DNA of 19,135 nt from a bacterium (GTDB lineage: Bacteria; CG2-30-53-67; CG2-30-70-394): assembly GCA_024278555.1 (NCBI GenBank), contig JAJRSX010000207.1, forward strand, positions 1 to 19,135, read 5' to 3'. A program made the position numbers and the translations under genes. Under the pieces are notes generated by a model, which saw only the letters and a list, made by a program, of their open reading frames with translations, was not told where the DNA came from and did no database searches. Below, one piece after another: positions 7,578-17,620 of this stretch (within the stretch, counting starts at the first letter, position 1; every line of letters starts with the position of its first letter).

Positions 7578-7578
<1 letters not shown>

Positions 7579-7895
7579 CAGGCAGGCTCCATGGTGCACT
7601 TGAGGGGGTGCTCCAGACGGCGAGCGTAGGCGGTCACCTGCGCCACCTTGGTCTCCGCCACCTCGTGGGTGAAGACCCCGGCCACCCCGACCCCGTTGCG
7701 GTGGACCTTCATCATGATCTGGTAGGCGTGGGGCTCGTCCAGGTGGAAGAAGCGGATGAGGATCTCCACCACGAACTCCATGGTCGTGTAGTCATCGTTG
7801 TGCAGCAGCACCTTGTACATCGGCGGCCGCACCACCTGCGACCGCTCGCGGGTCCTGGTCTCGCCCTGGCCGTCGGGCCTCTCGTTGTCTGCCAT
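7578..7895 (-). CDS. clpS: ClpS, N-degron adaptor of ClpAP
   Basis: This small cytoplasmic adaptor (105 aa) binds destabilising N-terminal residues and delivers them to ClpA. A flexible N-terminal extension (about 1-25) is followed by the core. The core carries the pocket residues N33, D34/D35, M39 and H65, in motifs [14 protein letters not shown] and VHRNG, matching E. coli N34, D35, M40 and H66. Its TGA overlaps the clpA ATG by one base, the usual clpS-clpA order. No Shine-Dalgarno sequence precedes the ATG. TAGACT ends only 6 nt before it, so the mRNA may be leaderless. Confidence 0.96.
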
Positions 7896-7901
7896 GGCGC
7901 T

Positions 7902-7907
7902 AGTCTA
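7902..7907 (-). promoter_or_regulatory. Candidate -10 element for clpS, consistent with a leaderless transcript
   Basis: Minus-strand TAGACT is followed by 6 nt and then the clpS ATG. The context GGGTAGACTAGCGCC has no ribosome-binding sequence. No good -35 lies at 16-18 nt (TGCCCT at 17). If used, transcription would begin at or next to the start codon. Confidence 0.45.
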
Positions 7908-8012
7908 CCCGCGCCGTGGGCGACAGGGCAGCAGGGGGACCAGCCCGTTGCCTTGGCGCCTGTCGGACCTGGGCCCGTATTTCTTACCGGGGATCATCGC
8001 GAGAGCGCGCAG

Positions 8013-8108
8013 ATGTCGGTAGGAGGGGGTTGCACTCCCGATTCCGGCCCGCAGGGCCGGCGGGGCCAGAGGCCCCGAATCGCGGGTACAACCCGCTCCT
8101 ACCGGCAT
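8013..8108. repeat. Complete REPIN-like element between nadB and clpS
   Basis: Outer arms atgtcggtaggag (8013-8025) and ctcctaccggcat (8096-8108) are inverted copies with one mismatch. Inner hairpins are ccggccc-gca-gggccgg (8044-8060), ggggcc-aga-ggcccc (8062-8076) and gcgggt-aca-acccgc (8082-8096). On the minus strand it begins GTAGGAGCGGGT, like Pseudomonas-type REPs. It shares its core with the element at 12257-12348 in opposite orientation. The rest of the 260-bp gap (7896-8155) shows no gene. Confidence 0.75.
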
Positions 8109-8155
8109 GGCCGTACTCCGCACCCTTGTATCCTTGCGTTATTCGGCGTGTCTCC

Positions 8156-9670
8156 CTACGACTGGTCCGCCACCGCGTCGGCCCGGTAGTGGGAGCCGAG
8201 GGAGGCGGTACGGGCGAGGGCGGCCTGGCAGATGAGGCGGCTGACCATGATCGCGTTGCCGGTCTCCGCCACCAGGCGGTCGGCGGGATAGCGCTGGTAC
8301 GGCAGCTCCAACGCCCGGAGGGCGGCGTCGGCGGCGGTGAGCCCCTCGGCGGTGCGGTGGATGCCGGCGTACTCCCACATGATCTCTCGTGCCTGCTCCT
8401 GGCGGGCGACGTAGTCGATCTCCAAGATCGGCGCCGGCGGCTCGTAAAAGCCGGCGTGGCGGAGGGTCGGGAAGGTGACCTCCGTGGCGAGGATCGCCCG
8501 GGCCGCGCGCTGGCCGAAGACGAGCCCCTCCAGCAGAGAGTTGCTCGCCAGGCGGTTGGCACCGTGGACGCCGGTGCACGCCACCTCGCCACAGGCGTAG
8601 AGGCCGGGAAGGTCGGTGGCGCCGTCGAGGTCGGTGACCACCCCGCCCATCATGAAGTGGGCCGCGGGCGCCACCGGGATCGGCTGGGTGCGCATGTCGA
8701 TGCCGTAGCTTCGGCACGCCTCGAAGATGGTCGGGAACCGCTTCGGCAGGAGCTCCGCCCCGAGGTGGCGGCAGTCGAGAAAGACCGGCCGGCCGTCGTG
8801 GCGGGCCATCTCGTCGTAGATGGCGCGGGCGACCACGTCGCGTGGCGCCAGGTCGCCGTCCGGGTGGCGGCCGACCATGAATCGTTCGCCCTCCTGGTTT
8901 AGTAGTCGGGCGCCTTCGCCGCGCACCGCCTCGGAGATGAGGAAGGCGGGGACGCCGTCGAGGTGCAGGGCGGTGGGGTGGAATTGGACGAACTCCAGAT
9001 CGCGCAGGGTGGCGCCGGCGCGGTGGGCCATGGCCAGGCCGTCGCCGGTGGCCACCGCCGGGTTGGAGGTGTGCCGGTAGAGCCACCCGACACCGCCGGT
9101 GGCCAGGACCACCGCGCGCGCCAGCAGGAGCCGCTCGCGGCCGTTGGTCTGGTCGACCAGCCAGACGCCGAGGCAGCGCCCCTCCTCGACCACCAGGCCG
9201 AGGCTGTAGTGGTGCGGCAGGCGACGCGCCCGCTCCAGGGTCCGCACCTTGGCCACCAGGGTGCGTTCCACCTCGCGACCGGTAGCATCGCCGCAGGCGT
9301 GCAGCACCCGGTTGTGGTGGTGGGCCCCTTCGCGGGTGAAGTCGAGGTTGCCCCCCAGGTCGAGGTCGAAGTGGATCCCCCAGTCGATCAGCTCGCGCAC
9401 CCGCTCCGGCCCCTCGTTCACCAGGACATCCACGGCGCCGGCGTTGCAGCAGCCGGCGCCCGCCTCCAGGGTGTCGTCGCGGTGGGCGGCCGGGGTGTCG
9501 CCGTCGGCCAGGGCCACGGCGACGCCCCCCTGGGCGTACTCGGTCGCCCCATCGCGCAGGGCATCCTTGGTGAGGACCGTCACCTGGCCGGCGTCGGCCA
9601 GCTCGATCGCCGCCCGCAGGCCGGCGACCCCGCCCCCCACCACCACGAAGTCGGTAAAGGAGATCTCCAT
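8156..9670 (-). CDS. nadB: L-aspartate oxidase (NAD biosynthesis)
   Basis: The product (504 aa) oxidises L-aspartate to iminoaspartate with FAD in the cytoplasm, the first step of de novo quinolinate/NAD synthesis. Visible features are the N-terminal FAD motif VVVGGGVAG (9-17), ATEYAQGGVA (about 42-51), QFHPTAL (229-235), SEAVRGEGARL (246-256) and HFMMGGVVTD (338-347). The flavin-binding stretch CGEVACTGVHGANRLASNSL (360-379) and a shortened helical C-terminus complete it. It is some 35 aa shorter than E. coli NadB, mainly at the C-terminus. The start at 9670 opens directly into the FAD-binding strand. No Shine-Dalgarno sequence is visible, and CATACT ends 8 nt before the ATG. It stands alone: nadA and nadC are not in the window. 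Members of this family resemble succinate dehydrogenase flavoproteins, but these motifs favour NadB. Confidence 0.95.
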   Translation of the reverse strand: MEISFTDFVVVGGGVAGLRAAIELADAGQVTVLTKDALRDGATEYAQGGVAVALADGDTPAAHRDDTLEAGAGCCNAGAVDVLVNEGPERVRELIDWGIHFDLDLGGNLDFTREGAHHHNRVLHACGDATGREVERTLVAKVRTLERARRLPHHYSLGLVVEEGRCLGVWLVDQTNGRERLLLARAVVLATGGVGWLYRHTSNPAVATGDGLAMAHRAGATLRDLEFVQFHPTALHLDGVPAFLISEAVRGEGARLLNQEGERFMVGRHPDGDLAPRDVVARAIYDEMARHDGRPVFLDCRHLGAELLPKRFPTIFEACRSYGIDMRTQPIPVAPAAHFMMGGVVTDLDGATDLPGLYACGEVACTGVHGANRLASNSLLEGLVFGQRAARAILATEVTFPTLRHAGFYEPPAPILEIDYVARQEQAREIMWEYAGIHRTAEGLTAADAALRALELPYQRYPADRLVAETGNAIMVSRLICQAALARTASLGSHYRADAVADQS

Positions 9671-9678
9671 GGCCGGGA

Positions 9679-9684
9679 AGTATG
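9679..9684 (-). promoter_or_regulatory. Weak candidate -10 element for nadB
   Basis: Minus-strand CATACT is followed by 8 nt and then the nadB ATG. No Shine-Dalgarno sequence lies between. There is no recognisable -35. It is listed because its position matches the better examples at clpS, def and trmL. Confidence 0.3.
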
Positions 9685-9766
9685 CACCGGCGGCCGCCAG
9701 TGGGGAGGGTCTTCTCTAGCTGCCTACCCCGGTAGTTCAGCAGAGTTGGAGGAGCCCGGAAAAACA

Positions 9767-9852
9767 GGAACACGAAAACACGAAATCTTGAAACACACGA
9801 AAAACTCCAACACGACTTTTCGTATTTTCTCCCTTTTGTGTCTTCGTGTTCC
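9767..9852. repeat. AT-richer inverted repeat built of cacgaaa/ttcgtg units
   Basis: Outer arms ggaacacga (9767-9775) and tcgtgttcc (9844-9852) pair perfectly, and the inner arms acgaaaa/ttttcgt (9797-9803/9817-9823) also pair. Between them the arms are imperfect copies. The right arm shows GTG-ending units at 9838-9840, 9846-9848 and 9857-9859. It lies in the 339-bp divergent gap between nadB and the ComEA-like gene and is far less GC-rich than its surroundings. The remainder of the gap shows no gene. Confidence 0.65.
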
Positions 9853-10009
9853 CATCGTGCCATCTACCTGAGACACGGGTGTAGGCACTCTTCCCACCGG
9901 GGACACGGGAACGTCGGGGGGCCGCGGCCGCCCCTTGCCGCGCCCGGCGTGACGGCGGAGACTCGGCGGAGGCCACGGAGAGGCCGCCCAACTCACGGAG
10001 GAGTTTCCC

Positions 10010-10306
10010 ATGTTCAAACGTCTCGTCTCGCTCTTCGCCCTTCTTGCCCTCCTCGCCGCCCCGGCTGCCTGGGCGGCGGAGGTGGCCGCGCCGGTCTCGG
10101 TCGACCCGGCGGTCACCGCCCTCCACCTCAACACCGCCACCGCCGCGGAGCTCGAAAAGCTCCCAGGGATCGGGCCGGTCCTCGCTGAACGCATTGTCGA
10201 GTACCGCACCGAGCATGGTCCGTTCACCCACCTCGATCAGCTTCAAGAGGTGAAGGGGGTGGGGGACCACCTCCTCGGGCGGCTCCAGGCCAACCTCGAC
10301 CTGTAG
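10010..10306 (+). CDS. Secreted ComEA-like helix-hairpin-helix protein
   Basis: The product is 98 aa. It has a clear signal peptide (MFKR followed by a Leu/Ala-rich core, with a likely cut after AWA near residue 22) and then a tandem helix-hairpin-helix domain. LPGIGPVLAERIVEYR (51-66) is preceded by LNTATAAELEK, and VKGVGDHLLGRLQ (81-93) follows FTHLDQLQE. This is the DNA-binding unit of ComEA, the periplasmic receptor that pulls in transforming DNA. Many proteobacteria carry such short ComEA-like proteins, some essential for DNA uptake and some of unknown role. GGAGGAG at 9997-10003, six bases before the ATG, sets the start. No other competence genes are nearby, so a DNA-uptake role is inferred from the domain alone. 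Confidence 0.9.
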   Translation: MFKRLVSLFALLALLAAPAAWAAEVAAPVSVDPAVTALHLNTATAAELEKLPGIGPVLAERIVEYRTEHGPFTHLDQLQEVKGVGDHLLGRLQANLDL

Positions 10307-10314
10307 GGCGGGTC

Positions 10315-10334
10315 GGCGGGGTACCGACCCCGCC
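10315..10334 (+). terminator. Hairpin after the ComEA-like gene, possible terminator
   Basis: Stem ggcgggg (10315-10321) and ccccgcc (10328-10334) with a 6-nt loop starts 9 bp after the stop codon at 10306. No T-run follows directly; the nearest is ttt about 16 nt further on. Termination here is therefore uncertain and may be partial. Confidence 0.35.
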
Positions 10335-10381
10335 GCCTCGTACCCCTTTCTTCATCGCGGCCTCTCCGTGACCCTGTCGCC

Positions 10382-11200
10382 GTGAAGGTACACCGCAACA
10401 TCACCTGGAACGGCCACAACCTCGCCTACACCGAGGTGGGGAGCGGCCCGCCCCTGTTGCTGCTCCACGGCTGGGGGGCGTCGGCGCGCTTCTGGTGGGA
10501 GTCGATGCGCCACCTCGACGACGCCTTTCGCTGCATCGCCCTCGACTGGCTTGGCTACGGCGACTCGGACCGGCCGGGCCACCCGGCGGGGCTGTCCAGC
10601 CACGCCGACGCCATCGGCGCGGTGTTACGGGAGCTCTCCATCGAGGGGGCGACGGTGGTCGGCCACTCCATGGGCGGGACGATCGCCGCGATGGCAGCGG
10701 CGGCGGGGATGCCGATCGGCCGCCTCGTCCTCGTCGCCCCCATGATCCGTGGGGCCGACGGCCTCAACCGCCGCTCCCGCTCTCTCCTGTGGCCGGGGGT
10801 GCGCCACCTGGTGCGGCCGCTGATCGGCGCGCGCCCCTTTGCCCGCTGGATCGCCGCCAACTCCACCTACGAGCTCCCAATCCCGGAGCTCTTCATCACC
10901 GGCGCCATGCAGGCGGATCGCGCGGTCCTCATGGATGACGCGGTGGCCCTCGGCAGGGTCGATCTCACCCCCCTGCTTCCGGCCATCCGCCAGCCGACCC
11001 TCCTGGTGACCGGCCGTAACGACGCGGTCCTCCGCCCCGGCCCCCTGGCCGAGGCCGAACGCCTCCTCCCCGACACCGAGCTGGTGCGCTTCGACCGATG
11101 CGGCCACTGCCCGCCCCTGGAGGTGCCGGCGCGCTTCGCCGAGGTGGTGGCGCGGTTCGCCGGCGGCGCGCCAGCGGAGGGTGGCACGCCTACGCGGTGA
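10382..11200 (+). CDS. Alpha/beta-hydrolase fold protein
   Basis: The product is a 272-aa soluble hydrolase of the broad MhpC/BioH-like alpha/beta group. The oxyanion-loop motif LLLHGWGAS is at 26-34. The nucleophile elbow VVGHSMGG has Ser96. The acid is probably Asp214 in LLVTGRNDAVL, and the base is His242 in RCGHCPPLE. A cap region (about 120-190) sits between core strands. A full catalytic triad suggests an active esterase, lipase or C-C hydrolase, but the substrate is not readable. The GTG at 10382 is the best start because it opens directly into the first core strand. It has no clear Shine-Dalgarno sequence. The gene lies 75 bp after the ComEA-like gene with a hairpin between them. Its 3' end overlaps the convergent def gene by 11 bp. 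Confidence 0.88.
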   Translation: MKVHRNITWNGHNLAYTEVGSGPPLLLLHGWGASARFWWESMRHLDDAFRCIALDWLGYGDSDRPGHPAGLSSHADAIGAVLRELSIEGATVVGHSMGGTIAAMAAAAGMPIGRLVLVAPMIRGADGLNRRSRSLLWPGVRHLVRPLIGARPFARWIAANSTYELPIPELFITGAMQADRAVLMDDAVALGRVDLTPLLPAIRQPTLLVTGRNDAVLRPGPLAEAERLLPDTELVRFDRCGHCPPLEVPARFAEVVARFAGGAPAEGGTPTR

Positions 11201-11714
11201 GGGTGTAGTCGCCTGCCTTGGCCGCCTTCCGGATCTTCCGCTTGAGGATGTCGCGCTTGAGGGCGCTCATCCGGTCGATGAAGACGACACCGTCGAGGTG
11301 GTCGATCTCGTGCTGGAGGATGCGGGCGGTGAGATCCAGGTACTCCTCCTCGTGGACCGTGCCGTCGCGGTCTTGAAAGCGCACCACGATCCGCTCGGCG
11401 CGCGCAACGTCACCGTAAAACTGCGGCACCGACAGACACCCCTCCTCGCCCACCACCGACCCCTCGCGCAGGACGATCTCCGGGTTGATGACCACCCGCG
11501 CCGCACGCGCCTCCGGGTCCGGATTCGGGTCGTAGACCAGCAGGCGGATCGCCTCGCCCACCTGCGGCGCGGCGAGGCCGACGCCGGGGGCCTCGTACAT
11601 CGTCTCGACCATCGACTCGATGAGCTCGTGCAGCCGACCGTCGAACCGTTCCACGGCGACGCACGCACGGCGTAGCCGCGGGTCCGGATAGTGGAGAATG
11701 GGGAGGATCGCCAT
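11190..11714 (-). CDS. def: Peptide deformylase
   Basis: This metalloenzyme (174 aa) removes the formyl group from nascent N-terminal methionine in the cytoplasm. All three signature motifs are present: GVGLAAPQ (44-51), EGCLS with metal ligand Cys93 (91-95), and QHEIDH with His135, Glu136 and His139 (134-139). The length is normal for the family. The start at 11714 gives the typical MAILPILHYPDPRLR N-terminus; the frame stays open to 12134, but that extension only shadows trmL. It has no fmt partner in the window, whereas def-fmt is the common arrangement. It diverges from trmL with 60 bp between start codons and overlaps the convergent hydrolase by 11 bp at the 3' end. Confidence 0.97.
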   Translation of the reverse strand: MAILPILHYPDPRLRRACVAVERFDGRLHELIESMVETMYEAPGVGLAAPQVGEAIRLLVYDPNPDPEARAARVVINPEIVLREGSVVGEEGCLSVPQFYGDVARAERIVVRFQDRDGTVHEEEYLDLTARILQHEIDHLDGVVFIDRMSALKRDILKRKIRKAAKAGDYTLTA

Positions 11715-11720
11715 CCGGGA

Positions 11721-11749
11721 AATGTAGGAGAGCGAGGGGGGGTGGGCAA
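11721..11749 (-). promoter_or_regulatory. Sigma-70-like promoter of def, predicting a leaderless mRNA
   Basis: On the minus strand TTGCCC (11749-11744), a 17-nt spacer and TACATT (11726-11721) form a good -35/-10 pair. Only 6 nt separate TACATT from the def ATG, and no Shine-Dalgarno sequence exists. Transcription should begin at or within a base or two of the start codon. This is the best of the promoter candidates in the window. Confidence 0.55.
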
Positions 11750-11757
11750 CGCGGTGG

Positions 11758-11766
11758 TGGTACCCT
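11758..11766 (+). promoter_or_regulatory. Extended -10 promoter candidate for trmL
   Basis: TGG-TACCCT (11758-11766) fits the extended TGn-TAnnnT pattern and ends 8 nt before the trmL ATG at 11775. No Shine-Dalgarno sequence and no clear -35 are present. It is back to back with the def promoter in a 60-bp gap, so the two promoters overlap in space. Confidence 0.4.
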
Positions 11767-11774
11767 GCCGCCCC

Positions 11775-12239
11775 ATGGATTCGATGGACCACCACCTCCA
11801 CGTCGTCCTCGTCCACCCGGAGATCCCGCCGAACACCGGCTCCATCGCCCGGCTGTGCGCCGGCACCGACACGGTGCTGCACCTGGTCGAGCCCCTCGGC
11901 TTCTCCCTGGAGGATCGCTATCTCAAGCGCGCCGGCCTCGACTACTGGCCCCACGTGCAGCTCGTCGTCCACCCCTCCCTCGACCACCTCTCTGTTGCCC
12001 ACCCGGGGCTGCGCGGCTTCTACGCCACCAAGTCGGCGCCCCGCCTGCACACCGAGGTCCGCTACCGCCCAGGCGACTTCCTCTTCTTCGGCCGCGAGAC
12101 CCGTGGCCTGCCCGAGGCGCTCCTCGCCGCCCACCGGGAGGAGACGATCCGCCTGCCGCAGAACGAAAAGATCCGCTCCCAGAACCTCGCCAACGCCGTC
12201 TCGGCGATCCTCTACGAGGCGATCCGACAGCTTCGCTGA
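11775..12239 (+). CDS. trmL: tRNA (cytidine/uridine-34-2'-O)-methyltransferase TrmL (SPOUT family)
   Basis: The product (154 aa; E. coli TrmL is 157) methylates the ribose of wobble base 34 in leucine tRNAs using S-adenosylmethionine. It is a minimal SPOUT domain. Motif 1 is PEIPPNTGSIARLC (15-28, with N20 and R26), motif 2 is FGRETRGLP (105-113), and motif 3 is RSQNLANAVSAILYEA (134-149), which forms the cofactor knot. In motif 3 the usual IPM is LPQ (127-129) and RS[ML]NLSN is RSQNLAN, small departures for the family. The ATG at 11775 fits the nearby -10 element; an ATG at 11784 is a close alternative. It is transcribed away from def and converges on the small DUF6572-like gene, with a REPIN-like element between them. 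Confidence 0.93.
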   Translation: MDSMDHHLHVVLVHPEIPPNTGSIARLCAGTDTVLHLVEPLGFSLEDRYLKRAGLDYWPHVQLVVHPSLDHLSVAHPGLRGFYATKSAPRLHTEVRYRPGDFLFFGRETRGLPEALLAAHREETIRLPQNEKIRSQNLANAVSAILYEAIRQLR

Positions 12240-12256
12240 GGAGGCGTGGCTCGAAG

Positions 12257-12348
12257 GGGGTGGGAGCGAGCTCCCGCTCGCGATTCGGCGCCGAAGGCCC
12301 CGCCGGCCCTGCGGGCCGGTTTCGCCGGCGGGAGCCGGCTCCTACCCC
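12257..12348. repeat. Complete REPIN-like element between convergent genes
   Basis: Outer arms ggggtgggag (12257-12266) and ctcctacccc (12339-12348) are inverted copies with one mismatch (a G-T pair). The arm stems are gcgag/ctcgc (12266-12270/12277-12281) and gccggc/gccggc (12324-12329/12334-12339). The core hairpin is ccggccc-tgc-gggccgg (12303-12319). It lies between the 3' ends of trmL and the DUF6572-like gene, a typical REP position. The remaining parts of the 180-bp gap show no gene. Confidence 0.75.
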
Positions 12349-12419
12349 ATTCTTCCGGGAGGCTCGGCTGCCGGAGCGCCACCCGCGCCGTCTCCCCTTG
12401 TGCTGTCCGTGACGCGGCG

Positions 12420-12758
12420 TCACCCCATCGCCGTCGCCCCCGGGTGGAGAAGAAAGTTGAACTCGATGGAGTCGGCGGCCAGGACCTGGCGGACGTAGTC
12501 GAAGAAGGCGAGCGACGCCGCTCCCGGGGCCTCACGGCAGATCAGGGTGATGACGCAGTCCTCGGTGGTCACCCCTGGATACGCCTTCGCCACCTCTCCC
12601 TCCATGATGTACTGGAAGTAGGTGTCGACCTTGCGCTTGAGCTGGTCGTGCATCTCCTCCACATGGTCCCACGGCCGGTCCTCGCGGATGATCAGGACGT
12701 ACTTGGCGCGCGCCGCGTCGTGGGCGATGTAGTCGATGGTGGTGGCGTCGGACATCAT
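12420..12758 (-). CDS. Small conserved protein resembling DUF6572
   Basis: The product is 112 aa, soluble, with no signal peptide or membrane helix. The opening TTIDYIAHD, the strand YVLIIREDRPWD (20-31), the helix EEMHDQLKRKVDTYFQYIMEGEVAKAYP (34-61) and a later strand CVITLICRE (68-76) recall the DUF6572 pattern (T-I-D...W-D...L..K...Y..FI..G...YP). I recall this pattern from memory and have not searched it. I chose the ATG at 12758 because GAGG lies six bases before it. A GTG at 12770 is in frame and overlaps the glycosyltransferase stop (GTGA) but has no ribosome-binding sequence. Either way it is translated immediately after the glycosyltransferase, so it is the last gene of that cluster. 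Its function is unknown. Confidence 0.8.
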   Translation of the reverse strand: MMSDATTIDYIAHDAARAKYVLIIREDRPWDHVEEMHDQLKRKVDTYFQYIMEGEVAKAYPGVTTEDCVITLICREAPGAASLAFFDYVRQVLAADSIEFNFLLHPGATAMG

Positions 12759-12766
12759 GGTGGGCC

Positions 12767-14566
12767 TCACGGGGTAGGGGGAGGGAGGGGGGGGAGCGGG
12801 TCGCCGGGTCCGGGGCAGGGTGCCGCCTCCTGGGGTTCGGGTGGTGGCGGTGAGTCGAGGGGCTTTTCGGAGGGTGTTGGCCAGTCGCTTGGCTCCGGTG
12901 GTACCGGACCGGTCGTCGGGGGGGCGGCCTCAGGGGGCGGGCTGGGGGCGGCCGGGTCGCGGGTGGCCAGGAGGAGGGTCTCCACCCTCCCCTTGTTGGG
13001 CTGGAAGGGGAATCGGTAGACCTCGCGCAGCCGGTCGGTCTGCGCCGCGATCTCCGCCCACCGCGCCTCCGGGAGGAGGAGGTAGGTGGCACCGGGGGCG
13101 AGGTGGGCGATCGCCGCATCGGCGGTGGCGAGCTCCGTGGGCTTGCGGCCCAGGTAGTAGGGGAGGGAGCCCTGGTCGCGGGCGGTCCAGGCGTAGACCG
13201 CGAAGGGGGCATCCCCTACCAGGGTACGGACGCGGGCCAGGGGCACGCGCGGGTCGTGGCTCGGGAGGCTCTGGAGGTGCCAGTAGCCGGGCCCCTGGAG
13301 GGCGGCGAGGGCGACGGCGAGGAGGGCCGTGCCGCGCAGGGGCCGACCGTGCCAGGCGAGGTGGCCGGCCCCGGCCGCCGCCACCGCCATCGCCGCGAAC
13401 GCCGCCGCGATGAAGGGGGCGTGGGCGGCGACCACCGTGTGCAGGTAGTTGTGGCCCGGCTCGACCCACAGGGGGGCGAAGGCCGCGCCGATCGCCCCGG
13501 CCGCGGCGACCACGGCGGTGATGACGCTCGCCACGGAGAGGCCACGCGCCGCCCACTTGCTGTCGATGCCGAGGGCGATCCACGCGGCCACTGCCGGATA
13601 GATCGGCATGAGGTAGCGGTGGGTCTTCTCCGCCGACAGGGAGAAGAGGAGAAAGGTCGCTACCGCCCACACCACCACGAAGGTGGCGAGCCGCCGGTGG
13701 CGCCGCCACGCCGGGACCACGGTGAGGGGGAGGAGGAGCCCCCACGGGAAGAAGTGGGTCGCGAGGGTGTTGAGGTACCAGAGGGGCGGCTCGTGCTCGT
13801 TCAGGCCGGTGACCTGCTGGGTGAGCTCGGTGGACAACAGCGACCGCGCCGCCTCGCCGCCGCTCAGGGCGACCGCCCCGTACCACGCCGCCGGCAGGAG
13901 CCAGAGGAGGGTGGTGCGCCGGCGCACCAGGTTCAGCAGGGCGCGCGGCCTACCGAGGGCCATGGCGGTGGGGACTGCCACCGCCCCGAGGACCGCCAAG
14001 GCCAGGGGCCCCTTGAGGAGGGCCGCCACCGCCCCCAGGAGATGCACCGCCCCGAAGGCGCGTCCTTCTCTCCCCTCCTCCGCCTCCAGCCCCCGGAAGA
14101 AGGCCCACACCGCCGCCCCGAGGGCGAGCATGAGGGGCAGGTCGATGAGGGCGTAGGCGGCGCGGTGGGCGAAGTCGTAGGTGGAGATGAGGATGAGCGC
14201 CGCCAGCCACGCCCGCCCGCTCCCCAGGGGGCGCCGGCTCACCCCCCAGAGGGTGAGCAGCAGCACCACCGAGGCCACGGCGGTGGCCAGGCGGGCGATG
14301 GTCTCGTCCACCCGGCCGGCCACCAGCCCACCAGCGGCGATGATCCAGGGGGAGAGCGGCGGCTTGAAGATGTACGGCCTCCCCCACGTCTCGGGGATCA
14401 GCCAGTGGCCCCCCTCCACCATCGACTGGGCACAGGCGATGCGGATCGCCTCGATGGTGTTGTGCACCGGCCGGGCGAGGTCGGGGAGGGCGAGGAGGAG
14501 GACAAGGGCGGCCAGCGACAGGGGGGCGGCCACGAGCCACCGGCGCGGTGTTGGTCTCTCCTCCAT
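12767..14566 (-). CDS. ArnT/PMT-like GT-C glycosyltransferase with proline-rich tail
   Basis: The product (599 aa) is a polytopic inner-membrane protein of the PMT_2/ArnT type, which transfers sugars from polyprenyl carriers to envelope acceptors such as lipid A. About a dozen hydrophobic helices span residues 10-460. The first periplasmic loop reads IEAIRIACAQSMVEGGHW...GRPYIFKPPLSPW, with the family's KPP at 68-70. The usual catalytic Asp-Glu pair of that loop appears as Ile38-Glu39, so the first acidic residue is not where expected. Further family-like features are STYDFAHRAAYALIDLPL and LSAEKTHRYLMPIYPA. The last 63 residues (537-599) are 29 prolines plus acidic and polar residues, an extension absent from ArnT. 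GAGGAGAGGGAG directly before the ATG at 14566 sets the start; the frame stays open to 14923 as a shadow of ispG. It follows ispG by 44 bp and meets the small downstream gene. Confidence 0.87.
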   Translation of the reverse strand: MEERPTPRRWLVAAPLSLAALVLLLALPDLARPVHNTIEAIRIACAQSMVEGGHWLIPETWGRPYIFKPPLSPWIIAAGGLVAGRVDETIARLATAVASVVLLLTLWGVSRRPLGSGRAWLAALILISTYDFAHRAAYALIDLPLMLALGAAVWAFFRGLEAEEGREGRAFGAVHLLGAVAALLKGPLALAVLGAVAVPTAMALGRPRALLNLVRRRTTLLWLLPAAWYGAVALSGGEAARSLLSTELTQQVTGLNEHEPPLWYLNTLATHFFPWGLLLPLTVVPAWRRHRRLATFVVVWAVATFLLFSLSAEKTHRYLMPIYPAVAAWIALGIDSKWAARGLSVASVITAVVAAAGAIGAAFAPLWVEPGHNYLHTVVAAHAPFIAAAFAAMAVAAAGAGHLAWHGRPLRGTALLAVALAALQGPGYWHLQSLPSHDPRVPLARVRTLVGDAPFAVYAWTARDQGSLPYYLGRKPTELATADAAIAHLAPGATYLLLPEARWAEIAAQTDRLREVYRFPFQPNKGRVETLLLATRDPAAPSPPPEAAPPTTGPVPPEPSDWPTPSEKPLDSPPPPEPQEAAPCPGPGDPLPPLPPPTP

Positions 14567-14610
14567 TCTCCCTCTCCTCAGGCCGGCTGGCGGGCGGTGT
14601 CGCGCGGAGC

Positions 14611-15678
14611 TTACACCCCGTCCGGGTGGTCCGCCTCGATGAGCGCCACCAGGGCGTCCACCAGGCGCGCCTCCTCCACCCGCTCCACCACCTCGCCCCC
14701 CTTGAAGAGGGTGCCGAAGCCGCGGCCGCCGGCGATGCCGTAATCGGCGTCGCTCGCCTCCCCGGGGCCGTTGACCACGCACCCCATCACCGCCACCGAC
14801 ACCGAGGCGGCCATAGAGCCGAGGCGCTGCTCCACGTCGCGCGCCAGCCCCACCAGGTCGATCTCCGCGCGGCCACACGAGGGGCAGGCGATCAGGTTCA
14901 CCCCGCGCTTCCTGAGGCCGCACGCCTTGAGGATGTCGAAGGCGACCCGCACCTCCTCCACCGGGTCGGCGGCCAGGGAGATGCGGATTGTGTCGCCGAT
15001 CCCGTCCAGCAAGAGGCTGCCGAGGGCGACCGCCGACTTGATCGCGCCGGTGGCCGGCGGCCCCGCCTCGGTCACCCCGAGGTGGAGCGGGTAGTCGATC
15101 TGCTCGGCGATCAGGCGGTACGCCTCCACCGTCCGGTGGACGTCCGACGCCTTCAACGAGATCTTGATCTGGTCAAAGCCGAGCTCCTCGAGGATGCGGA
15201 TGTGGCCGAGGCCGCTGGCCACCATCGCCTCGGCGGTGGCGCCGCCGTGGGCCTCCATGACCGCCTTCTCCAGGGAGCCGCCGTTCACCCCGATGCGGAT
15301 CGGCACGCCGCGGTCGGCGCAGGCGCGGGTCACCTCCTCCACCTTCCAGCGGGCGCCGATGTTCCCCGGGTTGATCCGGATGCAGTCGGCGCCTGCCGCC
15401 AGGGCGGCGAGGGCGAGCTTGTGGGAGAAGTGGATGTCCGCCACCAGGGGGACGGCGGTGTGGTCCTTGATCCGGGCGAACGCCGCGGCCGCCTGTTCGT
15501 CGAGGACCGCCAGGCGGACGATCTCGCACCCCGCCTGCTCCAGGGCGCGGATCTGCGCCACGGTGGCAGCCACGTCGCGGGTGTCGGTGTTGGTCATCGA
15601 CTGGACCGACACCGGCGCGAAGCCGCCCACCTTCACCTGGCCGACACGGATCTGTCTGGCGATGCGACGGGTCTTCAT
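14611..15678 (-). CDS. ispG: 4-hydroxy-3-methylbut-2-en-1-yl diphosphate synthase (IspG/GcpE)
   Basis: The product (355 aa) is the cytoplasmic [4Fe-4S] enzyme that converts MEcPP to HMBPP in the MEP isoprenoid pathway. The TIM-barrel N-terminus opens with SVQSMTNTDTRD (24-35) and includes ADIHFSHKLALAA (80-92) and RINPGNIG (101-108). The cluster ligands are Cys265 and Cys268 in CPSCGR and Cys300 in GCVVNGPGE, with the conserved Glu307. Length and lack of an insert fit the ordinary bacterial two-domain form. It begins a cluster with the glycosyltransferase (44 bp on). No Shine-Dalgarno sequence or close -10 is visible upstream. A hairpin ccgcca/tggcgg lies at 15709-15724, 30 bp before the start. 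The MEP pathway supplies polyprenyl carriers, which could loosely link it to the next gene. Confidence 0.97.
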   Translation of the reverse strand: MKTRRIARQIRVGQVKVGGFAPVSVQSMTNTDTRDVAATVAQIRALEQAGCEIVRLAVLDEQAAAAFARIKDHTAVPLVADIHFSHKLALAALAAGADCIRINPGNIGARWKVEEVTRACADRGVPIRIGVNGGSLEKAVMEAHGGATAEAMVASGLGHIRILEELGFDQIKISLKASDVHRTVEAYRLIAEQIDYPLHLGVTEAGPPATGAIKSAVALGSLLLDGIGDTIRISLAADPVEEVRVAFDILKACGLRKRGVNLIACPSCGRAEIDLVGLARDVEQRLGSMAASVSVAVMGCVVNGPGEASDADYGIAGGRGFGTLFKGGEVVERVEEARLVDALVALIEADHPDGV

Positions 15679-15708
15679 GGGAGGGGGCTTTCAGCGGTCA
15701 GCGAAGCG

Positions 15709-15724
15709 CCGCCAAGGGTGGCGG
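15709..15724. other. Hairpin in the ispG upstream region
   Basis: Stem ccgcca (15709-15714) and tggcgg (15719-15724) with a 4-nt loop lies 30 bp upstream of the ispG ATG. If transcription starts further upstream it would be in the leader. Too short to assign a role. Confidence 0.35.
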
Positions 15725-15731
15725 CTCCGGC

Positions 15732-15852
15732 GCCGCAAAGCGAGGGGAGGAGGGGAAAGAAGGGCCTGCAAGGCCCGCGCCATCCCAAGGGGGACACCGA
15801 TGACGCCATCCCCCCCTTCGCCTCCCCCTCTGCGTCTCCGCGTCTTTGCGCG
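15732..15852. repeat. Imperfect inverted repeat containing period-8 units, upstream of ispG
   Basis: The right part holds three exact 8-nt-spaced units, cctctgcg / tctccgcg / tctttgcg (15827-15850). The left part (ccgcaaagcgaggggagg onward from 15732) is a loose inverted counterpart. A perfect small hairpin gggcc-tgcaa-ggccc is at 15762-15776. No protein-like frame exists in 15679-16191. Confidence 0.45.
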
Positions 15853-15979
15853 AGATCATCGCCTTCCAGGCCCGTACCGTCCCCCGGTCCACCCCCATCG
15901 ACCCCACCCCCCCCGGTCCCGCTCCCCCCTTTCTACTTTCTACCCTCTACTGCCATTCCACAGATACCGTGCCGAGGTC

Positions 15980-16006
15980 GGTGCGCCGCGCTGCGCTTGG
16001 CGCACC
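15980..16006. repeat. Short palindromic repeat ggtgcgcc...ggcgcacc
   Basis: Perfect arms ggtgcgcc (15980-15987) and ggcgcacc (15999-16006) flank gcgctgcgctt and are followed by ctacgg. The form (GTAGGGTGCGCC, a loop rich in GCGC, GGCGCACC) looks like a dispersed intergenic repeat familiar from other proteobacterial genomes. Confidence 0.5.
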
Positions 16007-16064
16007 CTACGGAGGCTTCTCCACCCAAGCCCCATTTCCAGATTCCGCCGTACTGCCATTTGTA

Positions 16065-16185
16065 GGGCGGCTGAGGTGCCCCAGGTTTGCGCCGACCCGC
16101 AGGGCGGGCCGCCGAGGCGTAGCAGCGCTACGTTGAGGCGGCACGCCCGAGGACGCGGCGCAAAGATGGGGTGCATCAGCCGCCC
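16065..16185. repeat. Long nested palindrome just downstream of rseP
   Basis: Outer arms gggcggctga (16065-16074) and tcagccgccc (16176-16185) pair perfectly. Next inward, ggtgccccaggtttgcgcc and ggcgcaaagatggggtgca pair at 13 of 19 positions. The innermost arms gggcgggccgcc...cgtagc and gctacg...ggcggcacgccc pair around a centre near 16124. The whole 121 bp ends 7 bp after the rseP stop. It could act as a terminator or REP-like element; no T-run is seen. Confidence 0.65.
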
Positions 16186-16191
16186 GTCTCT

Positions 16192-17556
16192 CTACGGCAT
16201 GGGGTAGATGCCGATCCAGCGCATAACATCGTTATAGGTCGCAAACAGCATCAAGGTCAGCAGCAGCGCCAGGCCGAGCTGTTGCGCCGTCTCCAGGATG
16301 CGCGGGTTGGCCGGCCGCCGGGTGATCCCCTCCACCGCGCAGATCAGCAGGTGGCCGCCGTCGAGGATCGGGATCGGCAGGAGGTTGAGGATGCCGAGGT
16401 TGAGGCTGATCACCGCCACGAAGAAGAGCCAGTCGGTCATGCCGCGGGCCGCCTGCTCGCCCGCCACCTGGACGATCATGATCGGGCCGCCGAGGCTCTT
16501 CGCCGACACCTCGTGGCGGAAGAGCTGGCCGATGCCGGAGACGATGGCGCCCCCGACCTCGACCGTCCGGTGGGTGCCGGCGGCGAGGGCGTCGAGAGGG
16601 CCGAGGCGGTGGAGGGTGAAGAGCTCCGGCGGCGGGTCGCCAGCGGCGATCCCCACCCGGCCGATCGTCTCGGGCTCGCCGTCGGCGGCGGCTTCGGGGT
16701 TGTCCACCGCCTTCGGTACCACCTCGATCTCCACCTCGGTGGCGCCGCGCCGGATGTGAAAGCGGAGCGGGGTCTCCGGGTGGTCGCGGATGATCGCCGC
16801 CATCGCCGCCCACGACCCCACCGGCTCGTCGTTGACCGCCACGATTCGATCGCCCGGCTCGATCCCGGCGGCGGCGGCCGGCATCTCCGGCTGCACCGTG
16901 CCCACCAGGGGGGGGAAGACAAAGAGGGCGCCGCGGGTGGCGATCTCGCCGGGGGCGACCGCATCGCCATCGGCGGGCGGCGCCGGTGGATCGACCACCA
17001 GGCGGAGCTCTTCGCCGTGGCGGCGGACCACCACGGCCACCGGTTCGGTGGGGTGGGTCGTGTAGTGGTGCAACGCCGCCTTCCAGGTCGAGATCGGCTC
17101 GCCGTCCATGGCGACGATCTCGTCGTCCGGCTCGATCCCGGCCCGTGCCGCGGGCGAGCCCGGTACCACCTCGCCGATCAACGGCCGCAGGGCGGGCACA
17201 CCGGCCATGAAGACCGCCGCGAAGAGGAGGACCGGCGCCACCAGGTTGGCCGCCGGTCCGGCCGCCGCCACCGCCGCCCGCTTCCACGGCGGCTGGGCGA
17301 GAAAGGCACGCCCCTGCTCGGCCTCGTCGACCTCCGCGTCCGGGGTGTCGCCGAGCATCTTCACGTAGCCGCCGAGGGGGATGGCGGCGATCTGGAAGTC
17401 GGTCTCGCCGATCCGCCGCTCGTACAGCGGGGGGCCGAAGCCGATGGAGAACCGCTCCACCCGGATCCCGAGCCGCCGCGCCACCACGAAGTGGCCCAAC
17501 TCGTGGATGAAGACCAGCAGGGGGAGGGTGGCGACGGCGGCGAAGATGCTCAGCAT
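16192..17556 (-). CDS. rseP: RseP-type site-2 intramembrane zinc metalloprotease
   Basis: The product (454 aa; E. coli RseP is 450) is an inner-membrane protease that cleaves anti-sigma factors and signal-peptide remnants within the membrane. Zinc motif HELGH is at 18-22 in the first helix, and the third ligand region NLLPIPILDGGH (391-402, Asp399) is in a later helix. Two tandem PDZ domains occupy about 125-190 and 215-285, as in gammaproteobacterial RseP; single-PDZ forms are common elsewhere. The start at 17556 is the canonical position 17 residues before HELGH; the frame's extension to 17703 would precede the first helix and is rejected. The usual neighbours (dxr, cdsA, bamA) are absent. 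The next gene downstream on the same strand is ispG, 513 bp away. No Shine-Dalgarno sequence; TAGAGT ends 10 nt before the ATG. Confidence 0.96.
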   Translation of the reverse strand: MLSIFAAVATLPLLVFIHELGHFVVARRLGIRVERFSIGFGPPLYERRIGETDFQIAAIPLGGYVKMLGDTPDAEVDEAEQGRAFLAQPPWKRAAVAAAGPAANLVAPVLLFAAVFMAGVPALRPLIGEVVPGSPAARAGIEPDDEIVAMDGEPISTWKAALHHYTTHPTEPVAVVVRRHGEELRLVVDPPAPPADGDAVAPGEIATRGALFVFPPLVGTVQPEMPAAAAGIEPGDRIVAVNDEPVGSWAAMAAIIRDHPETPLRFHIRRGATEVEIEVVPKAVDNPEAAADGEPETIGRVGIAAGDPPPELFTLHRLGPLDALAAGTHRTVEVGGAIVSGIGQLFRHEVSAKSLGGPIMIVQVAGEQAARGMTDWLFFVAVISLNLGILNLLPIPILDGGHLLICAVEGITRRPANPRILETAQQLGLALLLTLMLFATYNDVMRWIGIYPMP

Positions 17557-17566
17557 GGTTGGCCAC

Positions 17567-17572
17567 ACTCTA
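17567..17572 (-). promoter_or_regulatory. Candidate -10 element for rseP
   Basis: Minus-strand TAGAGT is followed by 10 nt and then the rseP ATG, with no ribosome-binding sequence between. A 17-nt spacer leads back to TGCCCA, a poor -35. It would give a leader of about 0-4 nt. Confidence 0.35.
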
Positions 17573-17620
17573 CCCGCGGTGGCGACCACTGGGCATCGGT
17601 GGGATGGTGGTTTGCCCACC

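Follow-up and report, generated by a model that had tools for sequence, protein, structure and literature searches.

Very probably (about nine chances in ten, by our estimate), ordinary promoters of the sigma-70 type whose -10 box lies 6-10 nt before the start codon would yield the leaderless or near-leaderless mRNAs predicted here for a minority of first-in-unit genes in the genome that contains the window (the whole analysed stretch of 19,135 nucleotides). The evidence comes first of all from a sample of 1.29 Mb of this 3.06-Mb, 211-contig genome (G000), with 664 unit-first and 189 operon-internal genes, in which a Shine-Dalgarno sequence (SD) was defined as a match of 4 or more nt and expected motif counts were taken from the region -74 to -25. 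Start codons are computed throughout; the gene caller used coding potential and start-codon type only and ignores upstream signals, so that motifs cannot bias its choice of start. It reproduced the starts assumed in an earlier note on this DNA for five genes except trmL, where it took an in-frame ATG three codons later.

The genome-wide positional peak that the earlier note proposed to look for is present. At positions -16 to -11 of unit-first genes without an SD, TAnnnT was found 40 times against 10.0 expected (P 6.5e-13) and ranks first among all 64 patterns of the form XYnnnZ, the runner-up reaching P 8e-4, and the narrower motif TAnnCT was found 22 times against 2.5 expected (P 3e-14). Two nucleotides before the hexamer G is enriched (62% vs 34%), and a -35-like T[TC]G[AC] is concentrated at spacers of 17 and 18 nt (8 of 43 genes). 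The consensus is (G)nTAnnCT, and a -35 element at 17-18 nt is hinted at. The hexamer is confined to unit-first genes that lack an SD: it precedes 16 of 236 divergent and 18 of 287 far same-strand genes, and 1 of 189 operon-internal genes (internal vs unit-first, Fisher P 0.002). SD-led genes carry it 3 times against 14.6 expected, a depletion that is partly to be expected because purine-rich SDs exclude TAnnnT. The controls run through the same pipeline behave as the literature predicts, the MP1 plasmid of Deinococcus radiodurans giving 9 against 2.6 with a peak at -12 and -13, and 150 kb of Escherichia coli K-12 giving 3 against 4.2. Freely fitted EM mixture models of the upstream signals settled on the C-rich text in front of the ATG; as their fractions were unreliable, simple counting was used instead. 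Joint scoring of starts and motifs showed high background when motifs were permuted or offset as controls, and its output served as a candidate list only.

In the mechanism that we propose, a -10 box of the form G-n-T-A-n-n-C-T, often with a weak -35 element at 17-18 nt, stands 6-10 nt upstream of the start codon, and RNA polymerase would begin the transcript with the A of the AUG or no more than ~4 nt ahead of it. The resulting leaderless or near-leaderless mRNAs could not use an SD, and ribosomes, probably as assembled 70S particles with initiator tRNA, would initiate straight at the 5'-terminal AUG. The sigma factor, the 70S route and the exact transcript 5' ends are what we infer from the DNA text, with the translation of leaderless mRNAs by 70S ribosomes carried over by analogy from other bacteria (PMC4117421).

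The gaps between hexamer and start codon are spread over 5-10 nt, with 11 genes at gap 6 and 22 at gaps 8-10; there are maxima at 6 and at 8-9 nt and few genes at 7, a pattern that may be due to chance in so small a sample. With textbook spacing, gaps of 8-10 nt put the transcription start 2-4 nt upstream of the AUG, and some of these mRNAs may carry a leader of 1-4 nt unless start choice favours the A. Such short leaders, at least in the subset with gaps 8-10, are a sub-variant of the main reading, with which their confidence overlaps, and we regard them as less likely than not: the spread of the gaps speaks for them, whereas the MP1 replicon of Deinococcus peaks at 6-7, and base composition speaks against them. 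The A of the AUG may be picked as +1 because the two preceding positions are mostly C (71% at -2 and 68% at -1 before the ATG of unit-first genes in G000, SD-led ones included), a poor initiating base where purines are preferred. The CC before ATG was rejected as a mark of the class, being common to SD-led genes and Halomonads; it is strong in the latter, weaker in Pseudomonas, and probably a general high-GC trait. Low 5' structure is likewise not distinctive, since the first 45 nt of genes with the hexamer (TA-led genes) show at least as much structure as those of SD-led ones.

Within the window, the four hexamers that the earlier note had read before clpS, def, trmL and rseP stand where it placed them, with gaps of 6, 6, 8 and 10 nt, respectively, and no SD (Table 1), and comEA has the good SD attributed to it (GGAGGAG). 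For nadB only the position and gap of the upstream CATACT hold: as a leaderless candidate it falls short, being off consensus and having a truncated orthologue in the sister species from which the start is missing; its product matches an FAD-binding/fumarate reductase family (Pfam), consistent with nadB. The background of TAnnnT at this place is ~1.7-2.4% per unit-first gene. The hexamer occurs in four of nine unit-first genes of the window with P ~1e-5 to 4e-5 against background, a post hoc value for cases picked by the reader of the earlier note. When the share found across the genome (~6% of unit-first genes) is taken as the rate, P is 0.001; four leaderless-type genes in one window are a local richness, above the genome rate. 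A generic sigma-70 consensus scan found no promoter, as expected because the -10 boxes are GC-rich.

Table 1. Candidate promoter elements and associated genes in the window (gap: nt between hexamer and start codon; G001: sister species of the same genus)
Feature	Position	Strand	Remarks
clpS -10, TAGACT	7902..7907	(-)	gap 6 to ATG; no SD
clpS gene	7578..7895	(-)	ATG at 7895-7893; Pfam ClpS E 1.2e-34; N-terminus kept in G001
def -10, TACATT	11721..11726	(-)	gap 6; no SD; hexamer and gap identical in G001
def -35, TTGCCC	11744..11749	(-)	spacer 17; TTGCTC at equal spacing in G001
def (peptide deformylase)	11190..11714	(-)	Pfam E 3.1e-51
trmL extended -10, TGG-TACCCT	11761..11766 (hexamer)	(+)	gap 8; no SD; GTGGTACCCTGCCGC kept in G001
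trmL-like SpoU tRNA methyltransferase	11775..12239	(+)	Pfam E 6.6e-26
rseP -10, TAGAGT	17567..17572	(-)	gap 10; no SD; TAGACT with gap 9 in G001
rseP	16192..17556	(-)	ATG at 17556-17554, start kept in G001; family name from the earlier note
nadB upstream, CATACT	9679..9684	(-)	gap 8; not TAnnnT; weak candidate only

Comparison with the sister species (G001) bears on whether individual hexamers are real. Its upstream regions of clpS, def, trmL and rseP keep the hexamer at the corresponding place. For example, GGGTAGACTnGCGCCATG is kept at clpS while the DNA beyond about -20 hardly aligns; def retains its -35 and -10 elements but not the discriminator; and at rseP one inner base of the hexamer is changed and the gap differs by one base. 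Four more pairs are concordant, namely a gshA-like gene, the L146 and L115 genes, and mutS (TATCCT, gap 8), so that the hexamer is kept in 8 of 8 orthologue pairs examined, a biased rate as the pairs were partly found via the hexamer. In an unselected orthologue set, four unit-first pairs were concordant and six discordant, three of the latter (clpS, mutS, L115) being differences in the start call. The def and trmL genes are divergent, with 60 bp between their start codons (11715-11774) and the two promoters back to back, an arrangement that is retained in the sister species along with both -10 boxes.

That the matches are due to chance, with transcription from promoters further upstream and translation initiated without an SD on an ordinary 5' UTR, is very improbable for the class as a whole. 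Background accounts for ~10 of the 40 hits, so that about a quarter of the individual calls would be chance, nadB and several low-scoring genes among them, but neither the size of the positional excess and its first rank among 64 patterns nor the retention of the hexamer in all eight sister orthologues while their flanks diverge would follow from it. Across codons 2-13 of seven pairs, substitutions by codon position number 9/8/21, a third-position bias which indicates that coding constraint starts at the proposed ATG. Hence it is hardly credible that the -10 boxes are real and the computed starts wrong, with transcription beginning at or inside the reading frame and a downstream codon used on a leadered mRNA: the caller did pick a downstream Met for the sister species' clpS orthologue, but that substitution pattern and the similar N-termini argue against it.

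Leaderless or near-leaderless initiation thus remains our preferred reading, for a class smaller than the earlier note's several first-in-unit genes might suggest: the class extends genome-wide, and its frequency is that of a minority, a few percent of unit-first genes. Among the 421 unit-first genes without an SD, TAnnnT is in excess by ~30 genes (7%); relative to all unit-first genes the excess is ~4%, which is probably a lower bound because miscalled starts and off-consensus boxes are missed. An SD precedes ~44% of unit-first and 69% of operon-internal genes, and the anti-SD is intact (GGATCACCTCCTTTCT at the 16S 3' end), so that SD-led initiation runs in parallel; the two types of start anticipated for this genome do occur side by side.

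The 30 strong TA-led genes include uvrB, mfd, mutS, mutS2, trmFO, tgt, dxr and ispH, as well as aroC, trpF, folC, mqnE, hemW and a prmA-like gene. Equivalogs above cut-off number 14 in these 30 and 5 in 30 SD-led first genes (Fisher P 0.025). The TA-led set was chosen by motif score and the SD-led set at random with a length limit, and with such unlike selection the lean of TA-led genes to core functions is only suggestive; the idea that housekeeping genes favour the leaderless mode is weakly borne out. DNA repair looks over-represented among TA-led genes, and a leaderless-type -10 box stands before mutS, mutS2, uvrB and mfd (L226:16915, L188:6421, L006:11401 and L194:9580, respectively).

The kinship of the window genome runs from 'same class' (six genomes) straight to 'same domain', and the genome is for this reason probably not proteobacterial; the best IspG identity was 60% (records of or very near the window genome may be excluded). 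In G002, a genome of the sister family with a GC content of 55%, TAnnnT is not enriched among 64 genes (5 vs 5.3), a sample of limited power; compared with a share equal to that of G000 the count gives P 0.06. Genome-wide, TASMCT-N6-9-ATG exceeds its reversed pattern, a crude control, in G000 (62 vs 41) and G001 (52 vs 32), and stays under it in all six sister-family genomes. The def orthologues of the sister family lack a TAnnnT at the expected distance from their likely start. Within the class, leaderless use of the TAnnnT type would therefore seem restricted to the window's family, as far as these motif counts can tell. A wider proposal, which we think doubtful, is that one family of a phylum-level lineage, unlike its sister family, gained or kept a leaderless mode that would preferentially serve genes for DNA repair, tRNA modification and isoprenoids; the unusually wide spacing between -10 box and AUG (6, 8-10 nt) would then imply that the choice of start site on the AUG itself is relaxed.

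The leaderless class itself is well described elsewhere. Zheng 2011 (PMC3160421) reported TAnnnT-led genes and found leaderless genes in 207 of 953 bacterial genomes, Proteobacteria included, and a prediction cited in PMC9581028 puts leaderless transcription in 21.6% of bacterial species. In Caulobacter crescentus 375 genes (9.6% of CDSs) are leaderless (PMC4117421); such mRNAs, which the earlier note took to be less often described for proteobacteria, are thus already documented in that group. As in Actinobacteria (PMC3160421), the genome is rich in GC and has TAnnnT ~10 bp ahead of the start in some genes and SD-led genes alongside, but the excess is ~4% of unit-first genes here and roughly 20% of genes there, as obtained by differing methods. 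The Deinococcus box, likewise a TAnnnT just before the ORF and most often TACACT, is separated from the start by 6-7 nt and precedes nearly a third of the genes (Zhong et al. 2025, PMC12340547), whereas here gaps are 6-10 nt and usage is lower; the pipeline used here detects the MP1 signal. Caulobacter shares a minority leaderless mode, a GC-rich genome and SD-led genes (PMC4117421), and there the class rests on 5' end mapping and ribosome profiling, unlike here, where it is known from sequence. What appears to be new is the putative class in a phylum-level lineage with few genomes, outside the classical groups, and next to a sister family without detected signal. As SD-based gene callers miss leaderless starts, the annotated starts of genes in this lineage may be wrong. 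For the gain or loss of leaderless usage, a natural comparison is offered by a genus that would use such starts beside a sister family without detection, and should repair and tRNA-modification genes indeed be over-represented in the class, differential translation would be worth testing.

An Rfam search of the window gave no match. Its intergenic regions include GC-rich, inverted-repeat-like text that recurs at 8050-8110 and 12270-12350 (ggcccgcagggccgg, gattcgg or complement) and resembles REP-type elements. The intergenic region at 9760-9860, adjoining the comEA-like gene, is AT-rich and partly self-complementary (aaaacacgaaa...ttttcgtattttctccc...gtgtcttcgtgttc).
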